A stretch of 64,000 nucleotides of DNA, taken from positions 20,199 to 84,198 of IMG/VR virus record IMGVR_UViG_3300037875_000559; one strand, 5' to 3'. The notes beneath the pieces were generated by a model. That model worked only from the letters and a program-made list of their open reading frames with translations, searched no databases and had not been told where the DNA came from. This document shows positions 20,101-50,554 of the stretch, piece by piece. Both the position numbers and the translations under genes were made by a program. Positions within the stretch are counted from its first letter, which is position 1, and each line of letters begins with the position of its first letter. The stretch comes from a virus.

Positions 20101-21163
20101 ATTTCCTAATACAGGCCAAAAAAGTCAAGCTCTAGGAAACCAGTTGAAAACCGCTCAAGTTCGATTTAAGGATGAGCATATCTCTATTACGGATAAACAC
20201 AAAACTGTTGTTCCTAAAGACAAGAGAGGGATTATTTCTCAAACTATTAAAGGGGTAGTCGCAGGAGTTAAATCCGACCATGCACCTATTTTCATAAATA
20301 TGAAAAATCTTACAGAAGCACAGTATAAAACAGAGGTAAACAAGATTGTTCTAGACCTAACTCTAATCTTTGGGGTAACAAACATAAAAGGTTCAAAAGG
20401 TATTTCGGGGAAATCCAGAGTAGGAGAGACCAATAAGTTTAATGGTTATGTCTCACCCATATTTCCTATTTCTGATGAAAAAGGTTATGAGGTTTTCGGG
20501 GCATATCAATATGGTAGAGGTTTGGACATAATCCCCAATGGGGAGTTTGATTCACTCTTAAAAAGAGATGCTACTTTGCTTCTCACAAATACTGAGTCAG
20601 ACCAACTTCTTGAGGGGGTGAAAGAAGGGAATGGACGATTCGCCTATCTTACCGTAGCAGGAGCTGTTTACAAGAGACTCAATGGAGACGGTGCATCAAT
20701 AGGGCAGGAGTTAAAAGACGTTTATTTCAGACTGACAGGAAAAGAGGCTCCAGGTGAAAAAAAGAACTTAATTAGAGGTATTGCTACTGCCTTAGAAAAA
20801 TCGGATCGTGGAGATCAAATTGTAGTGAACACACCGACAAGGTTGAGAGATCTACGACCTTTATTACAAGAGAAAGAGGCGTGTGATTGTCGTGCAGATA
20901 ACGCAGACATTCAGATTATTTTGGCAGAGGAGTTCCTTCAACCTGTTGAAGGAGAGGAACAAGAGAGTGCAATCGTAAGAGCACAGAAAGCCAAGATAGA
21001 GAGCAAAGTAAAAGATTGGTCAGACAGACAAGCTTCTCTTCAAGGAGAAACAGAGTCTTCTTCTTCAGCTTTACCTACAAACATTGGTAGTAGAATAGAG
21101 GGGGCGATTAAAGACTTTAAGTCTCTGAGTGATTTCCCATTACCTAAGCCACCAAAGGATTAA
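17189..21163 (+). CDS. Large baseplate hub protein
   Basis: 1324 residues. The first 600 resemble phage hub proteins (gpD / T4 gp27 type): beta-rich, with a block ending IPLRPEMRPGYPVYIPYID and YYVTAISHSFSFGSDCTTSLTLTARR, typical of the domain where the hub forms its ring. The rest is a lysine-rich extension of about 700 residues that I cannot assign and that is absent from ordinary hub proteins. It lies between the tail-end paralogues and the OB-fold spike gene. A CDCR motif (about 1230) is of unknown meaning. Confidence 0.65.
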   Translation: MSVDKRPYAGNWSPDILNYKRKYTTWTPDAIVLFNGDTKLPGCNECKNKIDFQAFITSVNCSGGTDSGSSSADISLAIPSHYGDSIFKDGEFLFQTGVEVNIYYRGFFEVSGLRPEGETVSENIGGEQVEFDLNKVEMRPYYPVFHGVVTSVSYSFSGGFYSASLSCANILHFWNNQKISTSAAYLAAKPSASRGSVRFNGHVYTNMTPHQIIYDLYRDSSGSADGVGWTFSRKSNMTGKTQLEGRSESLYSLSLLYWNSRFAQGAYSLRMYGASGAVYTGLQTTYLGNKIATSKKLQKLSTSAKKSNAAQEFQTEYAIKLSERDEKLRVLRQPDGDYLPALPGSKTGVSVADQKSFITDISAMGSFELFDTQYDTKLGIASQVADKAGYEFYQDVDGSLVFKPPFYNLDTSSSRVYRIENEDILDISFENQEPEYTYAVCKGGLFRNTAGLGMEGTWGVKSTYVDYRLVAKYGWKALEFDTTFFNNKTAAYYAAVVELEKSNVNVNGCSVTIPLRPEMRPGYPVYIPYIDCFYYVTAISHSFSFGSDCTTSLTLTARRKKFHAPATSSKNGIESVDLGNPALPPKRLIFKDQRGHYNTIGFPNVVMALDPTKVNPNHSFFRFDFHEGLVSNNSKLRRAFKNALILQAYEMKILTLSSSASADPNDDGFFNGPWTLSIEGENGGAETIKLGREVRRVPIYKKNQAGKKVKSGRSKTVGVDIKGTSALRGLAQARDKKISDAMKNRNKADFGEVDKEAREAYYKARNDLKGGDNFTVIDLIDLVQDSNPSGGQPDSDNSASTANILKLLDDKKSSFNPNVPGYYRYYSSSHPKPEHQAPLDMVVDPETNKLTSLDPQLLVDGVEGFVIKDKKTTPALPDEVVVQKETIKRGFKTKTKYSKAEPEIVPTKDILHLSFQYHGAYKKKGIYTDAIKVKRSPKSIIRDIRKAVTSGVNRAFKGKKSILSSALVLSVFPNTGQKSQALGNQLKTAQVRFKDEHISITDKHKTVVPKDKRGIISQTIKGVVAGVKSDHAPIFINMKNLTEAQYKTEVNKIVLDLTLIFGVTNIKGSKGISGKSRVGETNKFNGYVSPIFPISDEKGYEVFGAYQYGRGLDIIPNGEFDSLLKRDATLLLTNTESDQLLEGVKEGNGRFAYLTVAGAVYKRLNGDGASIGQELKDVYFRLTGKEAPGEKKNLIRGIATALEKSDRGDQIVVNTPTRLRDLRPLLQEKEACDCRADNADIQIILAEEFLQPVEGEEQESAIVRAQKAKIESKVKDWSDRQASLQGETESSSSALPTNIGSRIEGAIKDFKSLSDFPLPKPPKD

Positions 21164-36297: not shown

Positions 36298-36642
36298 ATG
36301 TCTCAAGACCCAACACAGCTCGATAAACTACCTCTCAAAAGCAAAAAGTTCCTAGCGTATTTGATTGCTGACATAGGATGGAAGATCCTCATGTTTTATG
36401 TAATATGGGAGTACCAAACTAAGATTGAGCATTATGCTTTTATGGTTCTTGTTACTATGATCGTAACAAGCGGCTTCATTCAGATCGGCTATATTTTAGG
36501 GCAAGCTGCTCTTGATAAATATACAACCGTTGCTGTTTCTGCTCTCGATAGAGAGGGTAAAAGTCCAACACCACCTTCATCACCTCAGAAAAAGAAAGAG
36601 GGTGCTTCTGAAGAAGGTGGAGACTTTGATGGGACTCTTTAA
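36298..36642 (+). CDS. Two-helix membrane protein, possible holin
   Basis: 114 residues with two hydrophobic segments (KFLAYLIADIGWKILMFYVIW and FMVLVTMIVTSGFIQIGYIL) joined by a short charged turn, then a charged, Pro/Lys-rich tail. Size and layout fit class II holins, with both ends in the cytoplasm, but no endolysin gene is adjacent. An AAAGGAG site precedes the start. Confidence 0.5.
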   Translation: MSQDPTQLDKLPLKSKKFLAYLIADIGWKILMFYVIWEYQTKIEHYAFMVLVTMIVTSGFIQIGYILGQAALDKYTTVAVSALDREGKSPTPPSSPQKKKEGASEEGGDFDGTL

Positions 36643-37165
36643 AGAAAGAAATAATGCATCTGCAAAAAGAGTAGCGGAGAAGTTTTCTTCTTCGATTAAG
36701 AATAAAAACTTCACTCTTCCAATACAATACGAAAAGGATTTAACAGTAAGTCCTTTTGGGATTAGTCTTGTTTTAAATTTGCAGTATGAGGGTGGAGATG
36801 TAGGGTTTATCTCAGGCTATATAGATCCGATAAAACAGACTGGTGTCTCTGCATATCAGTGTGCTTCAGATATTCGGAGTTTGTCCCAACAACACCCCTC
36901 TGTTAATACCAAGAAAGGTGAGATTAGGCTTGTTGCGGTCGGTCAGTCTGAACTATACAAACCATATAGAGGTGTGGGTTTAGGGGTTCAGATGTACACA
37001 GAATTCCTCCGCTCTGTTTGGGACAAGGTTAGAAAGCCTTTCATATTTATTCCAGATGCTTGTGATGTAGGTAGGACTTCAGACGACGCAAGAAGGGTTT
37101 GGAAGTCTTTAGCTAGAAATAAACCCTCTTCTAATCTTTGTATTACGATCTTGAACCGACCATAA
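36629..37165 (+). CDS. GNAT-like acetyltransferase, probably packaged
   Basis: Start at ATG 36629 with GGTGGAG at good spacing, overlapping the membrane gene by 14 bases; an earlier start would run far into that gene. 178 residues: N-terminal helix ASAKRVAEKFSSS, GNAT core with the acetyl-CoA loop RGVGLG (114-119), and the family tail TSDDARRVWKSLARN. It is a paralogue of the proteins at 673 and 40923. Substrate unknown. Confidence 0.65.
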   Translation: MGLFKERNNASAKRVAEKFSSSIKNKNFTLPIQYEKDLTVSPFGISLVLNLQYEGGDVGFISGYIDPIKQTGVSAYQCASDIRSLSQQHPSVNTKKGEIRLVAVGQSELYKPYRGVGLGVQMYTEFLRSVWDKVRKPFIFIPDACDVGRTSDDARRVWKSLARNKPSSNLCITILNRP

Positions 37166-40922: not shown

Positions 40923-41441
40923 ATGAAGTCTGTAGAGTCTTACACTTATGATGGAGTGTTACAGTATGAAGAGTACTCTAGGGGTCTAGATGTTGGTGTT
41001 ACACTATACGCTAATGATAGTGAAATAGGCTACATTCGGGGGCAGAAACTCAATTATAATAACTTTGAGAGCTTACAAAAAGCTAAGACTTGCTACAAGG
41101 ATGTTATCCATCTTGCAGGTCTGGGTGGGAAATCTGTGTGCGATACGGTAAAAGGTACTTCTTGCCTTTTACCTAGAGTTTTTATGATTACAGATGTAGA
41201 ATTAGAGAGTTATGACGACCAAGGAGTGAAGCTTAGAGGTCTTGGTCTTGGTAAGATTCTCTATGAGGTTATTTTTACAGAGTTTTTTGAGGAGAATGGG
41301 GATTTCATTGCAGTTCCAATGAAATGTATTTTCGGAAGAGATAATACTTCTCCTGACGCACAAAGAGTGTGGGACTCTCTTGCTAGAAATCTGGAATCTT
41401 CTTCGGATCTAGTTCTTGTAGATAGGGCTTTGCACTTTTAG
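40923..41441 (+). CDS. GNAT-like acetyltransferase
   Basis: 172 residues, third member of the local GNAT-like family. Acetyl-CoA loop RGLGLGKIL and the family tail TSPDAQRVWDSLARN are clear. It lacks the N-terminal amphipathic helix of its two paralogues and is isolated on the plus strand inside a minus-strand block. Stop bases are shared with the convergent gene (TTAG). Substrate unknown. Confidence 0.65.
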   Translation: MKSVESYTYDGVLQYEEYSRGLDVGVTLYANDSEIGYIRGQKLNYNNFESLQKAKTCYKDVIHLAGLGGKSVCDTVKGTSCLLPRVFMITDVELESYDDQGVKLRGLGLGKILYEVIFTEFFEENGDFIAVPMKCIFGRDNTSPDAQRVWDSLARNLESSSDLVLVDRALHF

Positions 41442-42938: not shown

Positions 42939-44120
42939 TTAAACTCCAAAAAAGTTCTCAGTTTTATATTTAGGTTCAGGAGCTACACCTTTACTCCAAA
43001 TCCAAATTGGTTCGCCAAAAGGCTTTGTTGTTTTTTGCCCCCCACGCTGATAAAGCTCGTAGCCGATTACACCTTCGTAATGAGCGTTAAGATTTTCCAT
43101 ATGTTTGAGCATCGGCTCACATAGGTTTATGTTTTTTTTGTCGTTGATATTAATACACATACGACCACCTTCAGATAAATGCTTCCAACACTTTGTTAGG
43201 GTTGGAAATAGAAAACCCTCTAGCCATTTTTCAGGTGTCGTGTATCGCTTCCAACTTTGTGTCTCTTCTTCACTATATCGTTCAATGTTGAAATAAGGAG
43301 GAGAGGTAAATACAAAATCAAACTCTCTCTCTCCAAGATCAACATCTTCAGCAGGAGAACAGATAAACTCTGTTTTCTTTTTTGTGTTACAGAAATCAGA
43401 AATAGCTTCATATTTCTCATGGAGTTTAGTGTTTGGATCTATGCCTACATAAGAAATAGCGTTTGAAGCATGGAAGCCTACGAGCCGATCTCCCCATCCT
43501 GCTGAGAAATCGAGAACATTCTTAGCATCAAAGAACTCGTATATCCATTTCGCAACTACAGGTCTAAACTGTTGAGCCATATAAGAATGGCTCATGATAG
43601 CTCTCCTTAAAGTCTGGCTGTTTATGCCACCTCTAGTGTAAGGTTCATCGCTTCTAAACCCAAAGAACCCTCTGAGGAAGTTGTTTTTCTTATCTGAGTT
43701 CTCCCACTCATATATAGGAGACTTACTTGAATGATAACCACAGCCCATTCTTATTATTTGTGTGAATTGATCTGAGACTGTCTTGCCTCTGTTATTTCCA
43801 AAGACTAAAAGAGGTTGGTCTGAGAACTTACAATCTAAGCCTTTTACTTGTCGTGGGTTTTCCCACTCTATGTTTTTTATTTCTATTTCTGCCTGTTTTA
43901 GTTTCAGCCAGTCTTTTTTAACTTCGTTTATTTCATATTCTCGTAAAGGGAATGGTAGCTTTTTTATTTCTTCTGATAGGTGTGTTTTTATTTCTTCTTC
44001 AGAGAAATAGTGAAGTAAGTTATCCCATTCTTTTGTAGAAATATAAAGACGATCTTCTATTACGGTAGAGTACTCCGTTATTTCTTTTTTAGGATCTCGT
44101 TCTAAATCAAAGAACATCAA
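42939..44120 (-). CDS. DNA methyltransferase, duplicated copy 1
   Basis: 393 residues. An N-terminal domain of about 195 residues is likely for target recognition. The Rossmann domain has motif I VLDFSAGWGDRLVGF (202-216) and motif IV FTSPPYF (271-277). SPPY is more usual for N4-cytosine enzymes, but N6-adenine cannot be excluded. It shares long nearly identical stretches with the 398-residue protein at 45599. The C terminus KTENFFGV has a clamp-binding-like form. The next gene upstream overlaps its start by four bases. Confidence 0.8.
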   Translation of the reverse strand: MMFFDLERDPKKEITEYSTVIEDRLYISTKEWDNLLHYFSEEEIKTHLSEEIKKLPFPLREYEINEVKKDWLKLKQAEIEIKNIEWENPRQVKGLDCKFSDQPLLVFGNNRGKTVSDQFTQIIRMGCGYHSSKSPIYEWENSDKKNNFLRGFFGFRSDEPYTRGGINSQTLRRAIMSHSYMAQQFRPVVAKWIYEFFDAKNVLDFSAGWGDRLVGFHASNAISYVGIDPNTKLHEKYEAISDFCNTKKKTEFICSPAEDVDLGEREFDFVFTSPPYFNIERYSEEETQSWKRYTTPEKWLEGFLFPTLTKCWKHLSEGGRMCININDKKNINLCEPMLKHMENLNAHYEGVIGYELYQRGGQKTTKPFGEPIWIWSKGVAPEPKYKTENFFGV

Positions 44121-45598: not shown

Positions 45599-46795
45599 CT
45601 AAACCCCAAAGAAATTGTCAGATTTGTACTTTGGTTCGGGAGCTTCACCTTTACTCCATACCCAAATTGGCTCACAGAACATAAGACTTGAGTCGCCCAT
45701 GTTTTTCCCTGGTCTCGCACCCATCTCATACCCAATTAATCCTTCGTATGTAGCTCCAAGAGACTCCATGTGTTTCAACATCGGCAGACATATTTCTTCT
45801 CTTTCTCCCTTTGTATACGCATCTGCAATGTTCACACAGATACGTCCTCCTTCAGATAAATGACTCCAACACTTCGTTAGGGTTGGAAATAGAAATCCCT
45901 CTAACCATTTTTCCATTTTAGGGTATCGCTTCCAACTCTGTGTCTCTTCTTTAGAGTATCTCTCCAAAGTGAAATAGGGAGGAGAGGTAAATACAAAGTC
46001 AAACTCAAGACCCGTCAAGTCAGCGTCTTCAGCAGGAGAACAGATAAACTCAGCTTTTTTTCCCGTATTACAGAAATCAGAAATAGCTTCATATTTCTCA
46101 TGGAGTTTTGAGTTAGGATCTATACCAACATAGCTTTCAGCATTTGAAGCATGGAAGCCTACAAGTCGATCTCCCCATCCTGCTGAGAAATCGAGAACAT
46201 TCTTAGCATCGAAGAAATTGTAAACCAACTTAGCTGACTGAGGTTTGAACTGTGAAGCAATGTATGATCTCATTGCCAAAGCACTTTTAAGAGCTTTAGG
46301 TGTCACATCTTTGTCAAACATAACGGGGTTGAGTAAGTATTTAATGAACGACTTCTTTCTACTTGTCCATGCAGACCAAGGAGATAAGAATCTCTCATGT
46401 CCTACTTCCATCCTTTCTTCTTGAGTGAAGAAATCTGACACAGGAGAGCCTAACCTCAACCCTTGTGCAACATATAAAGATCTACCTTTATATGTTGTGG
46501 CTATTTCTGAAGAGATACGCTTGCAAGACCAAGAGTCTTCACTCATTTGTGGTTCTCTACTACACAGTAAACTGAATTCGTTTCTTATTTCTTGTGTGTT
46601 GTATTCTCGATATGGAAACTTGATTTTTCCGTCCTCAATTAAATCTCTCATTCTTTGGTGTATTTCTTCTTTTGTGTATGAAGAAATAATGCTTTGCCAC
46701 AATCCTCTCGGTATGAACAAATCACCATTTAAATCGAAAATCTCTTCTTCTTTTAGAAGGTTTGGCTTTTCTATTTCTAAATCATCAAATAACAT
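45599..46795 (-). CDS. DNA methyltransferase, duplicated copy 2
   Basis: 398 residues, paralogue of the protein at 42939. The SAM loop DFSAGWGDRLVGF and FTSPPYF are kept, and the 120 residues around them are almost identical, whereas the N-terminal 190 residues differ strongly, which suggests different target recognition. It ends KSDNFFGV. Its ATG directly follows the helicase stop. Confidence 0.8.
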   Translation of the reverse strand: MLFDDLEIEKPNLLKEEEIFDLNGDLFIPRGLWQSIISSYTKEEIHQRMRDLIEDGKIKFPYREYNTQEIRNEFSLLCSREPQMSEDSWSCKRISSEIATTYKGRSLYVAQGLRLGSPVSDFFTQEERMEVGHERFLSPWSAWTSRKKSFIKYLLNPVMFDKDVTPKALKSALAMRSYIASQFKPQSAKLVYNFFDAKNVLDFSAGWGDRLVGFHASNAESYVGIDPNSKLHEKYEAISDFCNTGKKAEFICSPAEDADLTGLEFDFVFTSPPYFTLERYSKEETQSWKRYPKMEKWLEGFLFPTLTKCWSHLSEGGRICVNIADAYTKGEREEICLPMLKHMESLGATYEGLIGYEMGARPGKNMGDSSLMFCEPIWVWSKGEAPEPKYKSDNFFGV

Positions 46796-48310
46796 TTACA
46801 TATCCAATACATCAGCGAGAGGGTCTTTTGTCTGTGTTCCTTTTTTGCCTTTATATGTAGGCAAGGAGTGCATGGGCATATTGAGAATACGACCTGAAGG
46901 CCAAGCAGGTTTTGCTTCAAACGCTTCAAAACCAGCCCCTTGTCTAACTTTCAGACATTGGTACTTTATTGTACCTTTCTCTCTCATCTCATCCCCATAC
47001 CAAGCAGAAATAACAACATCGCTAGAACGCTCTGCTTCATTAGCATAACTCAAGTGTGTGAGGTTATATGACCCTCCGTTCTTTTCAGCCGCTTTAAAGC
47101 CTTCACGAGAAATCTGAAAGAGACAGACAAGAGGAATACCCTCTCCTCTGTTGAAAGAAAGAGCGAGTTTTTTCAAATCTCGTATGACTTCGTTTAGTCT
47201 TTCGGTGGTGGAAGCTACCCATCTTCTTGAGGACACAAGCAGAGCGTGGTCTACAACTAGCACCTTTGCAGGTTTTCTTTGATGTAAGACCTCTGCTTTA
47301 GTCTTAATGTCTTCCACAGTGATGTCCATAGAGTCGGGGTCGGCTATTTCAAACTGAATTGAGCCATACTCTCCACTCTCTACACCCTCTCTTAAATCTT
47401 TTACGACATCTTTAAGTAGGTCGATCTCGTCTTCTGTTAATTTACCATTCTTAATAGAGTCTGGGTCAATACCTACATCGGGATTCTGTTGTTTTTGGAT
47501 TCCTAGTGCCATTCTTTTTGAACGGAACTTTTTGTGCATAGAATGAAAGGCATATATTGTTTCTCTACATTGTTCATAGTGCATTTCTAGTTGGAAATAA
47601 ATGCTGTTCAGACTTTGATATACAGCCATGTTGTATATCCAGTTCATCGTTGTTTTGGATTTCATGTGTGCAGTAAATCCTGCTACCATATAAAGTTCTT
47701 TCTTACGAAACCCTCCGATAGCGTCATCTATATACTGAAGACCTGTTTTTGGTAAGACTCCTACATCGGTATCTACTGTTTTTTGGTAGTGTTCCCAAAA
47801 AGCGTCTTCGTCATTGAGAACATCGCCACCGATCTTCGCTCCAAAAGTAGGTGTGAGTAAATCAGAGAGTTGCTTTGACAAATATTTTGTCGCATCTCTC
47901 ACACCTTTCAAAGTAAATTTCTTTCTACCTTCTTTTATTTCTAAACCTTGACGAGCAATCGTTTTTGTAGAAGAAAGAGCATCCGCTAAAGCCATGTGAC
48001 GAGCGTCTTCCACATTCTTTTCTATTTCAAGAATAAAGTCGCCTCGATAAATCACAGACATACTTGAGATTTGACGGATACGGTCTGCTTCATCAAAATC
48101 ATTATTTGAATCAAAATATTGGATGACGACATCTTGTTCGGGCAGATGTCCATGTGTTGAAGCAAAAGTCTTAATAAACTCAAAAATCTTTATATCTGTC
48201 GGCAAATCGAACAGAAATATACTTTCTCTGAGAGAAATATAGTTTTGATACATCAAGTCATCTTTGTCGCCCACTCTAGTGTCTGGGAGAATAGATCTGA
48301 GTATTTTCAA
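46796..48310 (-). CDS. Replicative DNA helicase (DnaB-like, RecA fold)
   Basis: 504 residues. An N-terminal helical domain (about 1-180) precedes the RecA-like core: TGLQYIDDAIGGFRKKELYMVAG leads into P-loop GFTAHMKSKT (211-220), then SIYFQLEM with the catalytic Glu, Walker B VLVVDHALLVSS, and a later QISREGFK block. The usual P-loop Gly before Lys is Met216, a rare form. It would be the hexameric helicase at the fork. The loader-like gene overlaps its start by four bases and the methyltransferase run follows directly. Confidence 0.88.
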   Translation of the reverse strand: MKILRSILPDTRVGDKDDLMYQNYISLRESIFLFDLPTDIKIFEFIKTFASTHGHLPEQDVVIQYFDSNNDFDEADRIRQISSMSVIYRGDFILEIEKNVEDARHMALADALSSTKTIARQGLEIKEGRKKFTLKGVRDATKYLSKQLSDLLTPTFGAKIGGDVLNDEDAFWEHYQKTVDTDVGVLPKTGLQYIDDAIGGFRKKELYMVAGFTAHMKSKTTMNWIYNMAVYQSLNSIYFQLEMHYEQCRETIYAFHSMHKKFRSKRMALGIQKQQNPDVGIDPDSIKNGKLTEDEIDLLKDVVKDLREGVESGEYGSIQFEIADPDSMDITVEDIKTKAEVLHQRKPAKVLVVDHALLVSSRRWVASTTERLNEVIRDLKKLALSFNRGEGIPLVCLFQISREGFKAAEKNGGSYNLTHLSYANEAERSSDVVISAWYGDEMREKGTIKYQCLKVRQGAGFEAFEAKPAWPSGRILNMPMHSLPTYKGKKGTQTKDPLADVLDM

Positions 48311-48975
48311 AGCTTCATACTCCTCGGCTTTTTGCTGTTTTGAGTTTTTTGGATTGCCATAAGGTTAATGCGTTCCCATCCTTCAATGCTTTCATCTACG
48401 GCTCTAGACCAAGAGAGGTGTCCTTCAGAAAGAGGTCTATTAGGCTCTTCTATAATCCATGTAGGTTTGGAAAGGTGTGCTCTTAACTCGATTGTCTCTA
48501 CTAAGACTTCAGGCATTGCACTATTTCTTGCCATTTTGACTCCGAGTCTAACAATTAAGAGTGATGGAGACTCGGCTAAGTCCTCTAAAGACTGAACACG
48601 AATATCTCTTTGAAAGTCAGGGTCTATTATTTCTGACTGTGCATATTGGAGATTACTCAGCCAAGCACTCATAAGAGTAGCGTCAGACACTACTTTGACG
48701 AACTCTTCCGGTTTCTTTCGGTGGGCTAAGGAACTTCTCAGATTAACCATAAGTTCATGCTTGTTGCCTATGAGGACACAGTTTTCAGAAATCTTGGATT
48801 TTAATACCGATGTTCTTTTGAGTTGGACATCAGACATTCCTTTCCAAGCCCTCTCCGCTTGGATATTTAGAGCTTTTTTTACAGTACAAATACATGAGAT
48901 AGCGTAGGGCATTCCCATGTAACCATCGTCTTTTTGGAGGTAACCCGCACCTCCACATTTTTTACACATAGACAC
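48307..48975 (-). CDS. Degenerate DnaC-like AAA+ helicase-loader protein
   Basis: The best start is GTG 48975 (GGAGG at six bases); ATG 48969 or 48981 are alternatives. The N-terminal zinc motif CKKCGGAGYL...CIC matches phage and Gram-positive helicase loaders. The AAA+ core is recognisable by its frame: CVLIGNKHELMVNLRSSLA sits at Walker A without GKT, and LLIVRLGVKMARNSAMPEVLVET at Walker B without the acidic pair, followed by RAHLSKPTWIIEEPN. Both ATP motifs are lost, so I infer a non-hydrolysing loader. Overlaps the helicase start by four bases. Confidence 0.65.
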   Translation of the reverse strand: MSMCKKCGGAGYLQKDDGYMGMPYAISCICTVKKALNIQAERAWKGMSDVQLKRTSVLKSKISENCVLIGNKHELMVNLRSSLAHRKKPEEFVKVVSDATLMSAWLSNLQYAQSEIIDPDFQRDIRVQSLEDLAESPSLLIVRLGVKMARNSAMPEVLVETIELRAHLSKPTWIIEEPNRPLSEGHLSWSRAVDESIEGWERINLMAIQKTQNSKKPRSMKL

Positions 48976-50554
48976 GAGCATCCTCCAACAAACCGTCAAA
49001 CAGTTCAGCAACTTCTGATGTACCTACCTCTATTATATCGGAATCTTCGTCATTTTTGAGTCGTTTTCCTAAAACACTTTCAATCAGTTTCATTTTGCTT
49101 TTCAGAGTTTTCATAACTCTGTCGTCTATCGTTTTCGGGGCTACCATATGATATGCAAATACCTTGTCATGTATACTACCGATACGAATCATTCGACCAA
49201 CAATCTGAAGATAGTCTCCTGCCGACCAGGGCGTGTCATAGAAAATAACAGCTTTGGCGAGCTGTAGATTCACACCTTCAGCCGCAGCCATTGTGATAAG
49301 ACAAATTTTCACTTCTGATTTTTCATCTTGGAAATGTTTCTGTGAGGTTATACGCTCATCTCCACTTTCAGAACCTGTGATGCGACAGGTTTTTATACCT
49401 TTGCCCTCTATTTCTGCCTCAAGAATATCAACCATAGATCTGAACCGAGAGAATATGATTACTTTCTCTCCATCTAAATCTGTAGAAATAGTTTCAATCA
49501 GAGCGTCTAGTTTCCCACTATCTCCGTCTGAGTTAATTAAAGCAGGGTGATTTACAATTTGTTGGCAAACTGTAACTGCTGTCAACTTAGTTACTTCTCT
49601 TTCTATTATTTCTCCTGTTTCAGGGTCTGTTGACTCTAAGAATCCTTCGAGTGCTTCTTTGTACTTAGCCTTTTGTGGTTTTGTAAGATCACATTTAATA
49701 ACTTTAGTTGTGAGAGGTGGCAACTCTTTAGCTACCTCATGTTTGGGTCTCCCTAAGAAATAAGGGTCTATTATCCCCCTAAACGCTTCGATGTCTGACT
49801 TTCGATGTCCTACTACAACAGGTATCCTACGTCTTCCTCCGGGTAAGATTTGATCTCTTGTGATACAGAAGTTTCTCATAAAAGCACTTTTAGTAGTGAA
49901 TAGGTGCGGTACAGTAACCTTATATATAGCCCACGCTTCCATTAGCCTATTCTTAATGATAGTAGCCGATAAAGACCAAACACGCTCTGCTGACCCTGCT
50001 AAGTGCTTACATACTTGGTGGACTTGAGACTTGTCATTCTTAAACGCTGTTGCCTCATCGAACACCATAACGTGTCCTGTAATAGTTCTAATGATATCAA
50101 AATCTTGGCAAGCTGTCCTATAGCCCATAACGATGGCTTTAGGTCCGTTGTTGTATTTCTGAAACTCATCATGGATTTTGAGTCGTTTCTTTTTAGTGCC
50201 TAAACACTTAAAAACTTCCACCCCTTCTGTAAATTTCTCGAACTCTGACTCCCATTGCCCTACGGCTGATTTGGTGGTGAGAATAATAGCAGGAATGTCG
50301 GGTCGCTTATCCCACAAATAGGCTAAGGTCGCTATGACTTGTAGGGTTTTTCCTAAACCCGTATCATCTCCTAGAACAAATCGAGGCATTGCGAGAAGGT
50401 GTAAGACACCTTGTACTTGATACTGTCTCAGAGTAAGTGGGACATCCTCTTTTATCTCTGTCTTTAGGATAGTGCTTGGAGGGGCTTTTAAGTCCTCTTT
50501 GGCTCTTACCTTTCGGAGCTTTTCGATTGTCAGTGCGAGTTTTTCTTCTATCAT
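48962..50554 (-). CDS. SNF2-family DNA helicase/translocase
   Basis: 530 residues with a full superfamily-2 set: Q-like RQYQ, motif I DDTGLGKTLQ, Ia TTKSAVGQWE, DEAT box VFDEATAFKN, SAT at SLSATIIKN, then VIIFSRFRSMVD and QIVGRMIRIGS in the second RecA lobe. The pattern is that of SNF2/SMARCAL1-like annealing or fork-remodelling enzymes, comparable in role to T4 UvsW. First large gene of the minus-strand replication block. Confidence 0.9.
   Translation of the reverse strand: MIEEKLALTIEKLRKVRAKEDLKAPPSTILKTEIKEDVPLTLRQYQVQGVLHLLAMPRFVLGDDTGLGKTLQVIATLAYLWDKRPDIPAIILTTKSAVGQWESEFEKFTEGVEVFKCLGTKKKRLKIHDEFQKYNNGPKAIVMGYRTACQDFDIIRTITGHVMVFDEATAFKNDKSQVHQVCKHLAGSAERVWSLSATIIKNRLMEAWAIYKVTVPHLFTTKSAFMRNFCITRDQILPGGRRRIPVVVGHRKSDIEAFRGIIDPYFLGRPKHEVAKELPPLTTKVIKCDLTKPQKAKYKEALEGFLESTDPETGEIIEREVTKLTAVTVCQQIVNHPALINSDGDSGKLDALIETISTDLDGEKVIIFSRFRSMVDILEAEIEGKGIKTCRITGSESGDERITSQKHFQDEKSEVKICLITMAAAEGVNLQLAKAVIFYDTPWSAGDYLQIVGRMIRIGSIHDKVFAYHMVAPKTIDDRVMKTLKSKMKLIESVLGKRLKNDEDSDIIEVGTSEVAELFDGLLEDARVYV

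Follow-up and report, generated by a model that had tools for sequence, protein, structure and literature searches.

The window analysed here is a stretch of 64,000 nucleotides that forms part of an IMG/VR virus record of 84,198 bp (IMGVR_UViG_3300037875_000559, positions 20,199 to 84,198). On the minus strand, which was not specified in the original prediction, an open reading frame (48975-48307) encodes a protein of 222 amino acids, referred to below, from its proposed role, as the loader. The gene begins with a GTG codon at 48975, about 6 nt past a GGAGG sequence, and its stop codon ends at 48307. It is overlapped by 14 bp by the end of the upstream SNF2-type helicase gene, the start codon of the loader being included in this overlap. 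At the other end, it shares 4 bp (48307-48310) with the start of the DnaB-like gene, in agreement with the coupling by overlap that had been proposed for these two genes. The features of the locus are listed in Table 1.

Table 1. Position of the loader gene, of its motifs and of the adjacent helicase genes in the window.
Feature	Position	Strand	Evidence
Putative pseudo-ATPase DnaC-type helicase loader, 222 aa	48307..48975	minus	ORF; AF2 model; PDB/BFVD fold matches to DnaC/IstB/phage G gp225; hhalign to intact loaders
N-terminal zinc domain CxxC...CxC (C4, C7, C28, C30) and long helix; probable helicase-binding domain	48847..48975	minus	Cys conservation; motif in intact phage loaders; hhalign
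Former Walker A loop and start of helix 1, residues 68-81, LIGNKHELMVNLRS	48733..48774	minus	hhalign to DnaC GKPGTGKNHL; column counts
Former Walker B strand and next loop, residues 139-151, LLIVRLGVKMARN	48523..48561	minus	hhalign; column counts
Former sensor-1 strand, residues 170-178, KPTWIIEEP	48442..48468	minus	hhalign; column counts
DnaC Arg-coupler/Arg-finger region, residues 185-191, GHLSWSR, now a conserved His motif	48403..48423	minus	hhalign; column counts
DnaB-like replicative helicase, 504 aa, TTG start	46796..48310	minus	Pfam DnaB_C 5e-19; phrog_19 4.8e-34
Variant P-loop of the partner helicase, AGFTAHMKS	47657..47683	minus	Pattern [AG][FYW][TVPS][GA]xxK[STC]
SNF2-type helicase gene directly upstream of the loader	48962..50554	minus	Pfam SNF2-rel_dom 6.2e-39

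Two groups of paralogous genes were also observed in the window. Just downstream of the helicase, two paralogous methyltransferase-like genes (42939-44120 and 45599-46795), both containing AKNVLDFSAGWGDRLVGFHASNA, flank two more methyltransferase genes; one relative of this locus (L002) likewise contains two copies of the paralogous gene. Three paralogous small acetyltransferase-like proteins (673-1317, 36512-37165 and 40923-41441) display by eye the common C-terminal motif VWxSLxRxxxSS.

The sequence searches against Pfam, PHROGs and the PDB detected no homologue of the loader and did not recognise it as DnaC, so an annotation based on sequence alone would leave this gene nameless. For 28 family members, the matches included neither the IstB/DnaC model PF01695 nor phrog_50, which is matched by gp225 of Bacillus phage G at 6.5e-39, and the family members gave no match with the DciA domain DUF721 (PF05258). 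The link with DnaC is visible only by profile-profile or structure comparison. The AlphaFold2 model obtained from 28 family sequences (pLDDT 85.4, pTM 0.80) is composed, in this order, of zinc strands, a long helix and the alternating strands and helices of an ASCE core, and this core is of the AAA+ type, related to DnaC, IstB and DnaA; the non-AAA+ fold that would have contradicted the original prediction was not seen. The best Foldseek matches in the PDB are IstB (8q4d, E 1.2e-4), E. coli DnaC in the DnaBC complex (6qem, 3.7e-4) and DnaA (1l8q, 8.1e-4), with DnaI and Hda at lower ranks. Among the viral models, the best match is gp225 of phage G (4.9e-8), and further matches bear the names DnaC or replicative helicase. 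The TM-scores of the leading matches are about 0.4-0.57, indicating that the similarity is remote; with solved loaders they lie at 0.4-0.5. A distant family member modelled on its own (pLDDT 90.1, pTM 0.84) matches the cores of DnaA, DnaC and KaiC at similar scores.

The profile alignment (hhalign) of the family with the intact phage loaders spans 189 columns, beginning at the zinc motif and ending with the last strand, with a score of 51.1 and a probability of 90.5%. Among 40 column-shuffled controls the highest score was 20.8, and reversing the alignment gave 18.6. With the DnaC set, the score is 36.2 (shuffled maximum 18.4). In the genome of phage G, the A3 profile finds gp225 weakly, through the zinc region (E 0.008). 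The modest TM-scores and the lack of significant Pfam or PHROG matches would suit an unrelated zinc-binding replication protein with a superficial likeness to AAA+ loaders, but we regard this as extremely improbable, given the agreement of the AlphaFold2 fold, the top Foldseek matches, a profile homology far above the shuffled controls, the zinc motif and the gene order. Other candidate relatives were discarded: tblastn matches in Vibrio phages (E about 5) are located in internal core proteins and are due to chance, and reading the genes around DnaB in Microbacterium phage Magritte, Tunturiibacter phage Tunturi_5 and Streptomyces phage Kela revealed no loader of this family (by eye, Magritte gp47 is sigma-factor-like).

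Relatives were collected from the single sequence (4), from the first five members aligned together (35 loci) and through the partner helicase (80 loci). After removal of near-duplicates, 63 representatives were retained, with a median pairwise identity of 34% and a minimum of 17%. Every family member was found on a viral contig or in a phage record, and many of these sequences measure 100 to 618 kb; in the annotated collections, one record, the 485-kb uncultured phage LR745208, contains a member. No relatives were found in the bacterial genome contigs and plasmids searched, and 13 phage records carrying the family contain one convincing member each. Walker A and the Walker B Asp are missing in 63/63 representatives, and each of the four zinc cysteines (C4, C7, C28 and C30) is kept in 62 or 63 of them. 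Between close pairs where dS is not badly saturated, dN/dS is about 0.08-0.19, so the loader is under purifying selection; these values and the conservation throughout the clade led us to reject gene decay. The peptide blocks quoted in the original prediction are all present in the chain, and the reading frame is real and not a product of chance, since the 28 aligned and the 63 non-redundant relatives have the zinc motif and lack the same catalytic residues, and the position of the gene is kept in 79/79 contigs.

These contigs belong to a set of 80, the best 80 of 116 confirmed matches, which were found through the helicase and consequently were not selected for the loader. Among them, the loader gene is directly upstream of the DnaB-like gene in each of the 79 contigs that include the upstream region, the eightieth beginning inside DnaB. 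A SNF2-type helicase gene precedes the loader in 26 of the 27 family loci tested. In the same best 80 of 116 matches, the P-loop pattern [AG][FYW][TVPS][GA]xxK[STC] is present in 80/80 partner helicases and GxxxxGK[ST] in none, and Leu or Met precedes the Walker Lys in 75/80, where Gly is expected. The Walker Lys itself is kept, as is the following Ser/Thr where no insertion intervenes. The partner is probably an active ATPase, judging from its sequence, because the Walker B Asp and the H3 Gln appear to be retained in the helicases examined. A review of jumbo phages (PMC7824862) notes gp59-type loaders and, in PhiKZ-type phages, a divergent DnaB with a modified Walker B; DnaC is not among the proteins it mentions.

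In several relatives, the partner helicases (DnaB and SNF2) contain large in-frame insertions that resemble inteins. They were located in the DnaB of L006 (6870-9722) and in the SNF2 helicases of L005 (1443-4541) and L006 (2990-5983), in all three cases directly after the P-loop Lys. Insertions are probable in the DnaB of L028, L032, L036 and L040 from oversized ORFs only; L036 reads LKC at the P-loop.

The residues of the family were mapped by profile alignment (hhalign) to E. coli DnaC and counted over the 63 representatives. No conserved counterpart was found for Gly109, Gly111 and Lys112 (Walker A), Asp169 and Glu170 (Walker B), Asn203 (sensor 1) nor for Arg216 and Arg220, which are named as Arg coupler and finger in DnaC (PMC8213410) and whose positions are unconserved as Arg in the family. 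The former Walker A, aligned with GKPGTGKNHL of DnaC, retains the length of the loop without its Gly, Lys and Thr. The position of Asp169 is occupied by Arg in 42/63 sequences (R or K in 46/63), the catalytic Glu170 falls in a one-residue deletion, and the TN of sensor 1 is replaced by [DE][QE]. The loss of GKT in Walker A and of the acidic pair in Walker B, as originally predicted, is thus borne out both by the motif scan of the chain and by the family columns, and intact motifs are not hidden elsewhere, neither GxxxxGK[ST] nor hhhh[DE][DE] being present anywhere in the protein.

Other positions of the core are maintained: the His-Leu after the P-loop (H78 in 59/63), the Gly of the Walker B turn (G145 in 63/63) and the Arg of helix 3 (R165 in 63/63, aligned with Arg191 of DnaC). 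The residues N151, E160, W173 and H186 are newly invariant or near-invariant, N151 being invariant among the 63 representatives and H186, conserved in 61/63, lying in the Arg-coupler/Arg-finger region of DnaC. A conserved basic loop, GxKxxRN, follows the former Walker B strand. Its residues Lys147, Arg150 and Asn151 are at or beside the DnaC loop that contains Ser177 and Tyr179, which contact ssDNA (PMC8213410), with an alignment possibly off by one residue in this loop. This location suggests that contact with DNA may have been retained while the ATP chemistry was dropped. Basic residues are also enriched in the former ATP pocket, where many relatives display [RK]xHL[RK] at the start of the former Walker A helix. 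Position 76, the former Walker Lys, is [RK] in 34/63 and position 80 is [RK] in 59/63; with H78 and the R/K at the Walker B Asp position, these residues could indicate that the pocket was rebuilt for another ligand, such as a nucleic acid phosphate or another nucleotide, the protein still being switched by a ligand, though without canonical ATP chemistry. We find this most unlikely as the main explanation, for position 76 varies (L, M, A and Q are also found) and is Met in the window protein. Non-canonical nucleotide binding by the loader is possible, given the Arg or Lys that about half of the members have at this position.

At the C-terminus (48307-48345), the window loader ends with KKPRSMKL, without linker. 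Most relatives have a short basic tail (e.g. PRRKKPWKKRK), often behind an acidic or low-complexity linker; this tail possibly contacts DNA or the helicase.

The loader resembles DnaC and DnaI in having an N-terminal domain followed by an AAA+ core that matches position by position at Walker A, Walker B, sensor 1 and the helix 3 Arg, but differs from them by the absence of all the ATPase residues and by escaping the IstB/DnaC Pfam model. IstB, the AAA+ regulator of IS21 transposition, is its best PDB fold match; however, IstB is an active ATPase that partners the transposase IstA, and no transposase gene adjoins the window loader. The phage G protein gp225 combines, as does the window loader, a zinc motif (CPKCKGLG...CSC, i.e. 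CxxCxGxG...CxC) with an AAA+ core, but it keeps the P-loop GQQGRGKS and the sequence LLIVDNIG, both lost in the window family. Its gene directly precedes that of DnaB (gp226), with the primase gp229 close downstream, so the loader-DnaB order is the same as in the window. A loader annotated DnaC-like or IstB-like also lies directly upstream of DnaB, with the primase close behind, in Mycobacterium phages Darko and Phabba and in Eggerthella phage LE2-3, where the gene at the DnaB position is annotated "DNA helicase". These intact phage loaders (gp225 and those of the mycobacteriophages and the Eggerthella phage) keep GxxxxGK[ST] and the Walker B Asp, in contrast to the window family, which also lacks the approximately 30 extra residues found before strand 1 of the intact core. 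The loaders of Staphylococcus phage 37 and Paenibacillus phage Lilo have the same zinc motif as the window family. The likeness of the N-terminal domain to other loaders is limited to this motif, and the domain is probably the helicase-binding domain. The DnaC-type assignment made originally is therefore supported by the fold, by homology to the phage G-type loaders and by a shared gene order.

Helicase loading without ATP hydrolysis by the loader is known from T4 gp59, and both DciA and T4 gp59 have folds unrelated to AAA+ loaders. The role proposed here would resemble that of DciA, which loads the helicase without loader ATP hydrolysis (PMC8213410), but unlike DciA and gp59 the window family would owe its ATP independence to the decay of an ATPase. 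Such loading is plausible, because the helicase-binding domain of DnaC, when isolated, retains about half of the wild-type DnaB loading, and in vitro loading by DnaC requires neither ATP binding nor the AAA+ domain (PMC8213410).

Other loaders were searched in 13 phage records carrying the family, whose completeness is uncertified, so that they may contain a second, unrecognised loader. In these records PF01695 gave nothing above the cut-off, DciA had no match and phrog_50 matched only weak P-loop fragments; the same phrog_50 search detected the loaders of phage G (4e-39) and LE2-3 (1.5e-41). Two points favour a loader role over that of an inhibitor or adaptor: the search of these phages revealed no other loader, and the DnaC helicase-binding domain loads without the ATPase. 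ATPase-defective DnaC mutants are nevertheless substantially poorer at activating DnaB unwinding than the wild type or the helicase-binding domain alone (PMC8213410); a catalytically dead loader might therefore likewise restrain the helicase, and the loss of the motor could favour this function. The protein would then be an adaptor or negative regulator that keeps the phage DnaB inactive or recruits it to a site, while loading would be ensured by the host, which has a loader of its own, by a phage protein that escaped recognition or by the helicase without help. We judge this unlikely: the gene is constantly linked to the divergent DnaB of the phage and occupies the same position as intact loaders, which points to the ancestral role, and no DnaC/DciA-type loader was detected in the 13 records.

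In our reading, the family is probably an ancient lineage of pseudo-ATPases within the DnaC/DnaI loaders. We infer that its members work with their own helicase, either loading it independently of ATP or helping to open its ring. The zinc/helix N-terminal domain would dock on the phage DnaB hexamer and, without use of ATP, the docked loader would open the ring or hold it open for the entry of ssDNA. The AAA+ core would serve as a passive scaffold, in which the loop GxKxxRN may guide the ssDNA in. Release would be driven by the ATP cycle of the helicase, by ssDNA or by the primase, and not by ATP hydrolysis in the loader. More tentatively, a clade of large phages might have given up ATP-driven loading in favour of a DnaC that is catalytically dead yet intact in structure, whose ATP pocket became a basic site binding DNA or anions and which co-evolved with a DnaB whose P-loop lacks the Gly in front of the Lys, leaving ring opening and closing under the sole control of the helicase.

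A search of open-licence papers revealed no publication on a helicase loader with lost ATP motifs, nor on an inactive or degenerate phage helicase loader. An unannotated gene of the replication operon of large phages gains a name and a likely role. In vitro, DnaC-type loaders can dispense with their ATPase for loading, which raises the mechanistic question of why they have one. An ancient and strongly conserved family, always paired with its helicase, in which the loader was kept and the ATPase discarded, represents a natural experiment that makes this question directly testable.
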